Below the pieces are notes generated by a model, which was given only the letters and a program-made list of their open reading frames with translations, was not told the origin of the DNA and ran no database searches. Shown piece by piece: positions 43,447 through 52,158 of a stretch of DNA of 64,000 bases. The DNA is taken from NCBI RefSeq assembly GCF_000144695.1, contig NC_014378.1, positions 1,677,833-1,741,832 of the forward strand, given 5' to 3'. The position numbers and the translations under genes were made by a program. Each line of letters starts with the position of its first letter. Position 1 is the stretch's first letter. Origin of the DNA: Acetohalobium arabaticum DSM 5501 (GTDB taxonomy: Bacteria > Bacillota > Halanaerobiia > Halobacteroidales > Acetohalobiaceae).

Positions 43447-44337
43447 CTATTTATCTGTTAATCCAAATAATTTAGAAAAGAAGCCCTTTACTCCTGTAGA
43501 AGTATTCTCCTCTTTAATATCCAATAGTTGGTTTCTGATCTCTTTAATCGCGTTAGCTGCTTTAGAATTAGGAAATTCTAACCAGAAGGGATGCTGTCTT
43601 TTGACAGCCTTAATTACATTCTTATCTTCAGGAATAGTTCCTAACACATTTACTTGAATCTCCAGAAAGTCATTAACAACTTCAGTGACCCGGTTAGAAA
43701 TCCTCTTTCCTTCTCTATCACTTTCAGTCCGATTAACAACCAGATTAATTTCAGAAATCTGTTGTTGATTAACAATAGTTTTAATTAAGCCATAAGCATC
43801 GGTAACTGAAGTCGGCTCTGGCGTCGAGATTATAATTATTTCATCAGCAGCTAAAGCAAAATCAATAACTGATTTAGAAATACCGGCTCCTATATCAATT
43901 AATATAATATCATACTTATTTTCTAACACCTGCCAGCTATTAATTAAGTTCTGCAGCTGGTAATCCGTTAAATTAGCCAGTTCTTCTGCACCAGAAGTCC
44001 CAGGAATAACCTCTAAATTCTGCGGACCTTCAACAATAATCTCTTCTATCTTTTTCTTTCCTTTAATCACATGGCCTAGGTTATACTGAGGAGTAAGCCC
44101 CAAAACTACATCTATATTGGCCATTCCTAAATCAGCATCAATAATTCCTACTCTTCTATCTTTAGCCTGCAGAGCTAAAGATAGATTAACAGTAAAATTA
44201 GTCTTGCCTACTCCTCCTTTGCCGCTAGCAACGGAATATATCCGAGCCAATTCTTCCTCTGGCTTCTTTTGGTCTTCCTGGTGTGTAGTACTCTGTTTTT
44301 GAACTAATTCTCTGAGTCCATGGGCTTGATCTTTCAT
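43447..44337 (-). CDS. flhG: FlhG MinD-like ATPase
   Basis: A 296-residue ParA/MinD ATPase with the deviant Walker A GKGGVGKTN, LGMANIDVVLGL and IDIGAGIS. A C-terminal amphipathic stretch (KGFFSKLFGLTDK) could bind membrane. It sets flagellar number and placement with FlhF and delivers FliM/FliN-type proteins to the C-ring. It lies 6 bases after flhF. Confidence 0.93.
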   Translation of the reverse strand: MKDQAHGLRELVQKQSTTHQEDQKKPEEELARIYSVASGKGGVGKTNFTVNLSLALQAKDRRVGIIDADLGMANIDVVLGLTPQYNLGHVIKGKKKIEEIIVEGPQNLEVIPGTSGAEELANLTDYQLQNLINSWQVLENKYDIILIDIGAGISKSVIDFALAADEIIIISTPEPTSVTDAYGLIKTIVNQQQISEINLVVNRTESDREGKRISNRVTEVVNDFLEIQVNVLGTIPEDKNVIKAVKRQHPFWLEFPNSKAANAIKEIRNQLLDIKEENTSTGVKGFFSKLFGLTDK

Positions 44338-44343
44338 TATAAA

Positions 44344-45426
44344 CTACTCCTCCAAAAGAGAATTTACTATCTTTTCTGGTTTAAATACCTCTATATCTTC
44401 GGGAACATTCTGACCATTAGTTATATATGATAATTCAGCATCAAATTGATCAATGATATTTACAAGCATTCCTAAATCTTTAGTTTCATCTAATTTAGTA
44501 AAGATAAATTTATCAAGTCCTATCTGCTGAAAGCTTAAAATAATATCTAATAAATCTTTAAATTTAGTAATTGCACTCAATACTAAATGTTTTTCTGCCA
44601 CATCTATTTTAGCCAGTAAAGCATCTAGCTCCGACATATGCATTTCATTATTCTGGCTTCGGCCTGCTGTATCGACCAAGACTAAATCTTTAGCAGCAAA
44701 TTTATCTAGAGCCTGTTCTAGTTCAGCAGAATTATAGACTACTTCCAAAGGAACATTGATTATTTCACTATAAGTCTTGAGCTGTTCTACAGCAGCAATC
44801 CGATAGGTATCAGCTGTAACTAAACCCACATCTTTATTCTTTGTTAAACTAAAATCAGCAGCCAATTTCGCCACAGTAGTTGTTTTCCCTACTCCGGTAG
44901 GACCTATAAAAGCAACTACTTTAGATTCTTGATCCGAAAGCGTTATTGGAGATACTGGATTTAATCTAGCCTTTATTTCTTCGGAAAATAAGCTCTTTAT
45001 TATCTCTTTATCTTCAATTTCTTTAGGGCCTAACTTATCATTAACTGCTATCAAAATTTCAGTTGCTAACTCATCTGTTATTCCTTGGGCTAATAATCTA
45101 TCTACTACTTCTTTTAAGTTTTCCGGTAAATTAGTATAAGAAGACTGTAGTTTATTCTCTTCTAATTTCTGTAAGACATTCCCCATCATCTGTTTTACCT
45201 GATTTAATTCTGACTCTACCTTCTGTTTCTCTTCTTTATCTTTTGTATTATGGACTTCATCCTCTATAGTAGCTACTACTTCTACCATTTCCGTTCCAAA
45301 CAGCCCTAAAAAACCGCCTTCTTTGAATTTACGAGTATGTAGAATAATAGCATCTGAACCTAAATCAGCCTTTACTTTAAACATTGCTTCCTGCATATTT
45401 TCTCCGCGATAGCGTTTAACTTCCAT
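44344..45426 (-). CDS. flhF: FlhF SRP-type GTPase
   Basis: A 360-residue flagellar SRP-family GTPase. A basic N-domain is followed by the NG domain with GPTGVGKTTTVAKLAA, DTYRIAAVEQL, LVDTAGRS and TKLDET. It marks the site of flagellum assembly and is stimulated by the FlhG N-terminus. Its ATG directly follows the flhA stop (TAAATG), so translation is coupled. Confidence 0.94.
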   Translation of the reverse strand: MEVKRYRGENMQEAMFKVKADLGSDAIILHTRKFKEGGFLGLFGTEMVEVVATIEDEVHNTKDKEEKQKVESELNQVKQMMGNVLQKLEENKLQSSYTNLPENLKEVVDRLLAQGITDELATEILIAVNDKLGPKEIEDKEIIKSLFSEEIKARLNPVSPITLSDQESKVVAFIGPTGVGKTTTVAKLAADFSLTKNKDVGLVTADTYRIAAVEQLKTYSEIINVPLEVVYNSAELEQALDKFAAKDLVLVDTAGRSQNNEMHMSELDALLAKIDVAEKHLVLSAITKFKDLLDIILSFQQIGLDKFIFTKLDETKDLGMLVNIIDQFDAELSYITNGQNVPEDIEVFKPEKIVNSLLEE

Positions 45427-49657: not shown

Positions 49658-50443
49658 TTAATTAAAAGTCTTAATTAGCGATTTAATTACCAAATACCAG
49701 CCGTCAACTAATACAAAGAGTAATATCTTAAAGGGAAGTGAAATCATTACCGGAGGTAACATCATCATTCCCATGGACATTAAAGTACTGGCAACTATCA
49801 TATCAATCACTATAAAGGGAAGATAGATTATAAATCCGATCTGAAAAGCTATTCTCAATTCGCTAATAATAAAAGCAGGAATCAGGACATAAGTCGGAAT
49901 CTCCATTTGGTTTTGAGGCCGCTCTATTTCACCTAAATCAACAAATAAAGCAATATCCTTCTCTCGAGTCTGCTTAAACATGAATTTCCTTAACGGCTTA
50001 ATCCCCTGCTCATAAGCCTGCATCTGATTGATTTCATCATCCAAATAAGGTTGTACTGCAGTATCATAAATCTGGCCCCAGACAGGTGCCATTACAAAGA
50101 TAGTTAAAAAGATTGCTAACCCAATAATAACCTGATTAGGAGGCATCCTTCTGGTTGCCAAAGCTCGTCTAATTAAAGATAACACCACAGCAATCCGCAC
50201 AAAAGACGTTAACATAATTAAAATTGCCGGTGCTAATGATAACACGGTCAACAACAGCATAATCTGCAGTGGTAAAGCTAGATTCTGGCTTCCCTCTCCG
50301 GTTTCAATACTTAAATTGACATCAGGTATCTCAAAAGTAGGTGCTGCTTCAACTATACCCTGGCTACTAATAATTATTAGTAGTAATAATATTGAAACCT
50401 TAAAGATAAATTTCCATCTCTTATTAATCATTATTACAGCCAT
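49658..50443 (-). CDS. fliP: Flagellar export protein FliP
   Basis: A 261-residue protein with a signal-like N-terminus and four membrane helices. Family motifs RIAVVLSLIRRALATRRMPPNQ and the C-terminal FKILLFVLVDGWYLV are present. Five copies build the export pore. It overlaps fliO by 20 bases; ATG at 50443 or the ATG four codons later could be the start, the latter with slightly better spacing from AGGG. Confidence 0.94.
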   Translation of the reverse strand: MAVIMINKRWKFIFKVSILLLLIIISSQGIVEAAPTFEIPDVNLSIETGEGSQNLALPLQIMLLLTVLSLAPAILIMLTSFVRIAVVLSLIRRALATRRMPPNQVIIGLAIFLTIFVMAPVWGQIYDTAVQPYLDDEINQMQAYEQGIKPLRKFMFKQTREKDIALFVDLGEIERPQNQMEIPTYVLIPAFIISELRIAFQIGFIIYLPFIVIDMIVASTLMSMGMMMLPPVMISLPFKILLFVLVDGWYLVIKSLIKTFN

Positions 50444-50768
50444 CCCTATTAAAAAACTTTTTAAAGCTCTGTTTTAAATTATTATCCTCCAGCTCTGCTG
50501 TTAATTTCTCTATTTTATCCAAATCAGTCACTTTCGAAAGCAATTCTACTCTTTCTTTACTAATACCTAATACCCAGACTTCATCTATTACTTTTACTAA
50601 ATACAGAGCTTGATCAGAATTAAAATAAATCTTCTCTAATATCTGTAGATTACGATTAAAACCCTGAAGATGCCTCTGCTTCTTGATGAATTTAATTACT
50701 ATAAAGAAGAGAATAATAATCAGCGATAAATAAAATACCATCTTAATTAACTGCCAAGAAAAAGACAT
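50424..50768 (-). CDS. fliO: Flagellar biosynthesis protein FliO
   Basis: A 114-residue small FliO/FliZ-type protein with one N-terminal membrane helix (YLSLIIILFFIVIKFI) and a soluble domain (LQILEKIYFNSDQALYLVKVIDEVWVLG, in part) typical of FliO. It helps assemble the FliP ring. The start follows AGAGGTG. Just upstream is the cheY remnant instead of an intact cheY. Confidence 0.85.
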   Translation of the reverse strand: MSFSWQLIKMVFYLSLIIILFFIVIKFIKKQRHLQGFNRNLQILEKIYFNSDQALYLVKVIDEVWVLGISKERVELLSKVTDLDKIEKLTAELEDNNLKQSFKKFFNRDGCNND

Positions 50769-50781
50769 CTTAACACCTCTA

Positions 50782-50931
50782 TTAACCTAATATTTTATTG
50801 ACAACATTTAATACTTTAACTCCAACTTTCATAGCTTCCATTACCATTAACTACTGTCCCATAGCACTACAGACCAATGTCTTAGCCTTAGAATCCAGAG
50901 TTAAAATTTCTTTTATAGAAGTAATTACATC
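50782..50931 (-). pseudogene. cheY: Remnant of cheY (response regulator)
   Basis: Directly after the fliY stop, one frame reads ITSIKEILTLDSKAKTLVCSAMGQ in part, then an in-frame TAG, then LMVMEAMKVGVKVLNVVNKILG and a stop. This matches the last half of Firmicutes CheY (AVKEI..DPNAKI.MCSAMGQQ.MV.EA...GAKDFIVKPF...VLEA.NKVLG). The 5' half, with the phosphoacceptor Asp, is gone; the KPF segment is deleted; and CAG appears changed to TAG. The location between fliY and fliO is where Firmicutes keep cheY. Confidence 0.85.
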
Positions 50932-52158
50932 CTAAAGATTAGTGATTCTCTCCATCGGGCTAACTATATCAGTAACTCTAAAGCCAAAGTTTTCATCAAT
51001 TACAACCACTTCTCCTTTGGCTATTAATTTTCCATTAACCAATAAATCTACAGATTCACCAGCTAACTTATCAAGCTCAATTACTGAACCATTACCCAAT
51101 TCCAAAATATCCTTAATCAACATCTTGGTTTTGCCTAATCTAACTGTAACCTCCAGGGGAACATCTTTAATTAGATCTATCTTACTCTGTCCCTGTTCAG
51201 TCTGACCTTCACCTAACTGTGAAAACTCTACTGACTGTACATCAACACTCTCTTCTCTACTAACTGCCCCGCTTTTACTATTAGCCAACTGCTGTGCTGC
51301 TTGCTGTTGCTGTGGTTGCTGCTGTGCTGTCTGTTGTTGTGGCTGTTGTTCGGCCTCTGCTTTACTTTTGGTAGCTGGTTCATTCTGTGATATATTATCA
51401 GCCGCAGTTTCACCACTCTCCTGTGGTTCTTCAGCCCTCTCAGAAGGATCAGGATCGGTCAAATAAGCTACTAATTCTTTAGCAAAATCTAACGGCATTA
51501 GCTGTAAAATCTCACTATCTATTACCTCACCAATAGTTAGATCAAAAGACACCTTTACTACTTCATCGTCCGGCTGAAAGCTACGACTCTTAATTTCATC
51601 AGTATTCAAAGTTAAAAGTTCAGCATTAGGAGGGGATATATTCACTTTATCTCCCTGCATAATGGTTGACATCGAAGTCGAAGCTGAACCCATCATTTGA
51701 TTCATAGCTTCACTAACAGCACTCAAATGAAGCTCATTTAATTCCGCATCAGGATTATTGCCATCACCGCCCATCATTAAATCAGAAATAATAGCTGCAT
51801 CCTGCTGTTCTATAATTAGAAGATTGCTGCCTTCTAACCCTTCTATATATTCAACATCAACAACTACACAAGGACGTTCATATTCCTGAATTAACTTCTG
51901 AAAGGTAACCAACTCTACTTCCGGCGCAGTAATCTCTACTGTCTCATCTAACAGACTATATAAAGCGGTAGCAGCAGATCCCATAGAAATATTTCCAATT
52001 TCACCAATGGCATCCTTCTCTTTATCTGTTAATTCATTCTCCAATTCAGAATTATTATCATCCTGTTCGTTACTCTCTACTGCTTCAGTTTCATCATTGT
52101 TAGAATCATCATTTAGTAAAGCATCAATTTCATCTTGAGACAAAACTTCTTCATTCAT
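50932..52158 (-). CDS. fliY: Flagellar switch protein FliY (CheC-like domain plus FliN)
   Basis: A 408-residue protein. The N-terminus LSQDEIDALL binds CheY-P in homologues. A CheC-like phosphatase domain follows with two sites (GEIGNISMGSAATAL and SEAMNQMMGSASTS). Then a Gln/Pro-rich linker of about 60 residues precedes a C-terminal FliN domain (LEVTVRLGKTKMLIKDILELG, in part). It forms the C-ring with FliM and FliG and also removes phosphate from CheY. It overlaps fliM by 8 bases. The codons after its stop belong to the cheY remnant. Confidence 0.95.
   Translation of the reverse strand: MNEEVLSQDEIDALLNDDSNNDETEAVESNEQDDNNSELENELTDKEKDAIGEIGNISMGSAATALYSLLDETVEITAPEVELVTFQKLIQEYERPCVVVDVEYIEGLEGSNLLIIEQQDAAIISDLMMGGDGNNPDAELNELHLSAVSEAMNQMMGSASTSMSTIMQGDKVNISPPNAELLTLNTDEIKSRSFQPDDEVVKVSFDLTIGEVIDSEILQLMPLDFAKELVAYLTDPDPSERAEEPQESGETAADNISQNEPATKSKAEAEQQPQQQTAQQQPQQQQAAQQLANSKSGAVSREESVDVQSVEFSQLGEGQTEQGQSKIDLIKDVPLEVTVRLGKTKMLIKDILELGNGSVIELDKLAGESVDLLVNGKLIAKGEVVVIDENFGFRVTDIVSPMERITNL

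Follow-up and report, generated by a model that had tools for sequence, protein, structure and literature searches.

A cheY remnant between fliY and fliO

The flagellar operon of Acetohalobium arabaticum DSM 5501 carries between fliY and fliO what is very probably a pseudogene of cheY, situated at the ancestral fliY-cheY-fliO site of this gene. The DNA analysed, hereafter the window, is a stretch of 64,000 nucleotides (NC_014378.1, positions 1,677,833 to 1,741,832), and its relevant features are collected in Table 1. Translation of the minus strand gave 49 codons, DVITSIKEILTLDSKAKTLVCSAMGQ(TAG)LMVMEAMKVGVKVLNVVNKILG, closed by a TAA at 50782-50784, in which the landmarks CSAMGQ and VNKILG are both present. 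A phmmer search matched this translation to L058, a fliY-linked CheY from a member of the same family (G004), with E = 6.2e-12. In BLASTP searches against the family's CheYs the remnant scored 47.4 bits, compared with a top score of 23.5 bits among 3000 translations of nucleotide-shuffled versions, and chance resemblance is thus excluded. Homology to CheY was likewise seen in a tree, in which the relic, on a long branch of its own, clustered with the fliY-linked CheYs and with three from G001 and G003 that are not linked to fliY (support 93/90), in a topology that is poorly resolved overall, with no starred branches and with open branches around the relic. A decaying cheY fragment bearing these landmarks had been proposed in a sequence-only reading of the window, and translation, phmmer and the shuffle control confirmed it to the base. 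Pfam did not list the remnant at E ≤ 1 and NCBIfam returned a weak CheY match (E = 0.02), which means that annotation by family models would miss it.

Both neighbours, described in the same reading as intact and close, indeed possess open frames that match the FliY/FliMN/CheC and FliO models. While fliY terminates with a TAG at 50932-50934, fliO starts at 50768 and is preceded by the leader TAGAGGTGTTAAG, which shows no difference between A. arabaticum (G000) and a species of the same genus (G001) and is similar in the remaining three of the five genomes that represent the family (G000-G004).

Table 1 Features of the fliY-fliO region, in window coordinates.
Feature	Position	Strand	Basis
fliO, intact	50424..50768	-	Pfam FliO, 4.5e-10
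fliO leader with presumed ribosome-binding site (AGAGGTG)	50769..50781	-	Junction sequences, alignment
cheY remnant, very probably a pseudogene	50782..50931	-	Translation, phmmer, shuffle control, tree
Site of the 33-nt in-frame deletion	50814..50815	-	Alignment with L058 and L059
Internal TAG	50851..50853	-	Translation, comparison, alignment
Junction of the 5' deletion (about 190 bp)	50931..50932	-	Comparison with L023 and L024
fliY, intact; CheC-like phosphatase / FliN-type switch protein	50932..52158	-	FliY/FliMN/CheC models

Lesions of the remnant

Comparison with two intact family loci, L023 and L024, in both of which the homologue of the first remnant codon sits 190 bp after the fliY stop, revealed that about 190 bp have been lost here, including the ribosome-binding site, the start codon and the phosphoacceptor half of cheY. 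An AGGA microhomology at the junction is visible against the sequence of L023. The acidic pocket and the phosphoacceptor aspartate are consequently absent from the remnant, as is the conserved lysine of the KP segment, which was removed by the 33-nt deletion together with the stretch matching DFVVKPFQAER (pattern DFxVKPFQxER). The codon now read as the internal TAG encodes Gln (CAA) in L024 and Asp (GAT) in L023, and the remnant is left with neither a start codon of its own nor an uninterrupted frame. The loss of the phosphoacceptor half and the KPF segment and the presence of an internal TAG, all claimed from the letters of the window, were borne out by translation and alignment.

Against G004 the remnant shows 11, 11 and 18 mismatches at codon positions 1, 2 and 3 over 49 codons, compared with 13, 6 and 22 of 49 for the intact pair G004-G002 in the same columns. 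This relative excess of second-position mismatches, counted over few sites, is in line with what would be expected once constraint has been lifted. Save for the one TAG the remaining frame is open, and the phase is kept across the 33-bp deletion. For a pseudogene this is slightly tidy, but a stretch of 49 codons is short.

Ancestral gene order and loss of cheY in related genomes

cheY comes directly after fliY in all 26 genomes that were sampled from the phylum's other classes, and a second collection, consisting mostly of Bacilli, showed the same arrangement in 77 of 80 loci. Within the class of A. arabaticum itself, the order fliY-cheY-fliO was found in two sampled genomes, while the remaining 28 of 30 lack an intact cheY at this place; the loci were sampled as best FliY matches, and genomes with poor FliY matches are therefore unrepresented in these counts. 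The family members with an intact cheY after fliY are G002 and G004. Together with the grouping of the remnant with the fliY-linked type, these gene orders uphold the earlier claim that the decay is taking place at the ancestral site. The locus thus resembles the fliY-cheY-fliO (fliZ) segment of Bacillota in having the same neighbours in the same order, with the remnant exactly at the place of cheY, but differs in that cheY is broken here and wholly gone in most of its own class.

Two further family members have progressed beyond this stage. The spacer between fliY and fliO measures 51 nt in G001, where only GTCAACAAAATATTAAGTTAA, the last ~20 bases of cheY, remains as the counterpart of VNKILG plus the stop, and 40 nt in G003, which holds a similar stub. 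Because both genomes keep only such stubs, we concluded that the remnant is not preserved for function. The loss of cheY here is part of a class-wide trend; inactivation either preceded the split of G000 and G001 or occurred in parallel in both. A clade of che-operon CheYs that joins G003 with G002 and G004 (90/96) weakly suggests that G003 may have lost its copy separately from G000 and G001. The description of the decay as recent-looking holds for the still-legible stretch, which looks fairly young, but not beyond it, given that G001 has lost nearly all of the gene and that the trend spans the class. Literature searches on the loss of cheY from the flagellar operon returned nothing on point.

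Further CheY proteins

The genome consists of one contig of 2,469,596 bases, is 99.6% complete and encodes 13 response-regulator domains. The genome search for an intact cheY that the earlier reading had called for yielded two: L002, a CheY of 125 aa whose gene immediately precedes cheB and follows a CheA-like frame (G000:C1:1038197), and L001, an orphan CheY of 124 aa (C1:1418926). Using the fliY-linked L058 as query, we recovered these two at 60-64% as well as the relic, whereas an intact copy closer to the query was not found. Loss of the only CheY of the genome is ruled out by L001 and L002, and the designation of the decayed copy as a key chemotaxis gene was accordingly too strong.

The cheB-linked type occurs in all four other family genomes at 83-91% identity, a match to the orphan type was also found in family genomes, and the 11 additional class members tested all contain a CheY that best matches the cheB-linked type at 61-77% identity. 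In G001 and G003, three CheYs related to the fliY-linked type (L060, L061 and L062) lie at unrelated genome places with different neighbour genes. As the fliY-linked CheYs of G115 and G153, which belong to other classes, are 65% identical to the che-operon type, it is possible that for part of this history cheY moved to the che operon, rather than a spare copy simply being lost.

Pyrrolysine system of the genome

Prat et al. (2012) is reportedly the primary paper on pyrrolysine in A. arabaticum. In the genome, PylS scores 303 bits against a cut-off of 178. A TAG interrupts, at codon 333 as read, the frame of a methyltransferase gene next to the tRNA-Pyl gene; judging from its sequence and place, we take this gene to be of the mttB kind. 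Both PylS and tRNA-Pyl, as needed for a pyrrolysine-decoded gene, are thus present, with the mttB-type gene as a control, and the organism has been listed as a pyrrolysine user (PMC3639795, PMC8318568). PylS exceeded the cut-off in none of the four other family members searched. In a neighbouring family of the order, two genomes of one genus have a PylS above the family cut-off (G006:C10:42255-42980 and G009:C33:5694-6416) and the others searched lack it, so that the pyrrolysine system is patchy across the order. Elsewhere in the window, an FlhF-like gene (44344-45426) likewise ends in TAG, and its frame runs on for 533 codons through one further TAG and crosses the FlhG-like gene at 43447-44337 (together 43447-45426); pyrrolysine decoding would fuse these neighbouring frames.

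Alternative explanations

fliY and the remnant share one frame, to which both the TAG that ends fliY and the TAG within the remnant belong, an arrangement that the sequence-only reading had missed. With PylS found above the cut-off in no other family member searched, the remnant could be conceived as a conditional C-terminal extension of FliY, its TAG being read as pyrrolysine while the pyrrolysine system is on. The predicted tail of 50 residues, up to the TAA at 50782, would begin with Pyl, followed by 26 residues, another Pyl and a final run of 22 residues. We nevertheless regard this as very improbable. The fliY TAG recurs at the loci L022, L023 and L024, and the genomes that share it, G002, G003 and G004, have no PylS over the cut-off; it hence need not concern pyrrolysine. 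TAG stops are tolerated generally, closing 19% of 218 crudely called genes sampled from this genome and 20% of 163 from the sister species, in which PylS is missing, and an avoidance of TAG stops was rejected on the same figures. Moreover, the 49-codon extension behind the fliY TAG is unexceptional in length, ranking 8th of 40; half of the CheY fold is missing from the tail; and the sequence past the TAG is not conserved as protein, the tail being absent in the sister species G001 and in G003. That FliY, a CheY-P phosphatase-type switch protein, should acquire this CheY-derived tail only on methylamines and that the tail should alter the behaviour of the motor switch is less probable still; if true, motor-switch behaviour would vary with diet. 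Read-through with an active pyrrolysine system is possible in principle and nothing points to selection for it. As TAG stops are equally common in the sister without PylS, the arrangement looks, and probably is, incidental.

If the stretch were retained to regulate or space the leader of the fliO mRNA, this would agree with the conservation in all five family members of its terminal ~20 bases, the presumed ribosome-binding site among them, but the bulk of the remnant is missing from the short spacers of G001 and G003. An RNA element or promoter within the remnant was likewise rejected, since its folding is unremarkable (z = -1.35) and nothing resembling a promoter or terminator was found in it, and we consider such a role exceedingly improbable. 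That a functional cheY was mis-sequenced or misassembled has a negligible probability and found no support: about 190 bp and 33 bp are missing in addition to the TAG, the neighbours are intact in a single-contig genome of high completeness, and two relatives show related losses. These three separate lesions bear out the sequence-only reading, which had already deemed such an error unlikely.

Proposed course of decay and implications

Decay of a cheY pseudogene very probably accounts for the remnant, with the intact gene present in L023 and L024 of the family and in each of the 26 genomes of other classes. From the presence of paralogues, we infer that the fliY-linked copy had become dispensable, and redundancy may have been the cause of its loss. 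The deletion of about 190 bp cost the gene its ribosome-binding site, start codon and phosphoacceptor half, the 33-bp deletion took the conserved lysine segment, and one remnant codon turned into TAG, presumably in this order, leaving a spacer presumably untranslated from any start of its own. The remnant probably lasts longest at its 3' end, next to the indispensable ribosome-binding site of fliO, since deletions extending into the bases just before fliO would impair its translation. Chemotaxis signalling probably proceeds via the intact CheY encoded beside cheB, with the orphan as a second CheY. The remnant shares with ordinary pseudogenes of dispensable paralogues the 5' and internal deletions, the in-frame stop, the intact paralogues and the shorter relics in relatives, the sole difference being that its stop is a TAG in an organism with a pyrrolysine system.

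The remnant is ordinary in kind, and neither its intermediate state nor the pyrrolysine aspect changes current understanding. It does offer a clear halfway stage in the disappearance of cheY, across the class, from the flagellar operon site where it ancestrally lay, and five related genomes can be arranged in a series from an intact gene through a partly eroded one to one almost erased. It also illustrates that, where an organism decodes pyrrolysine, a pseudogene may follow a TAG stop in the same frame, and suppression of that stop would then lengthen a functional protein by a vestigial extension.
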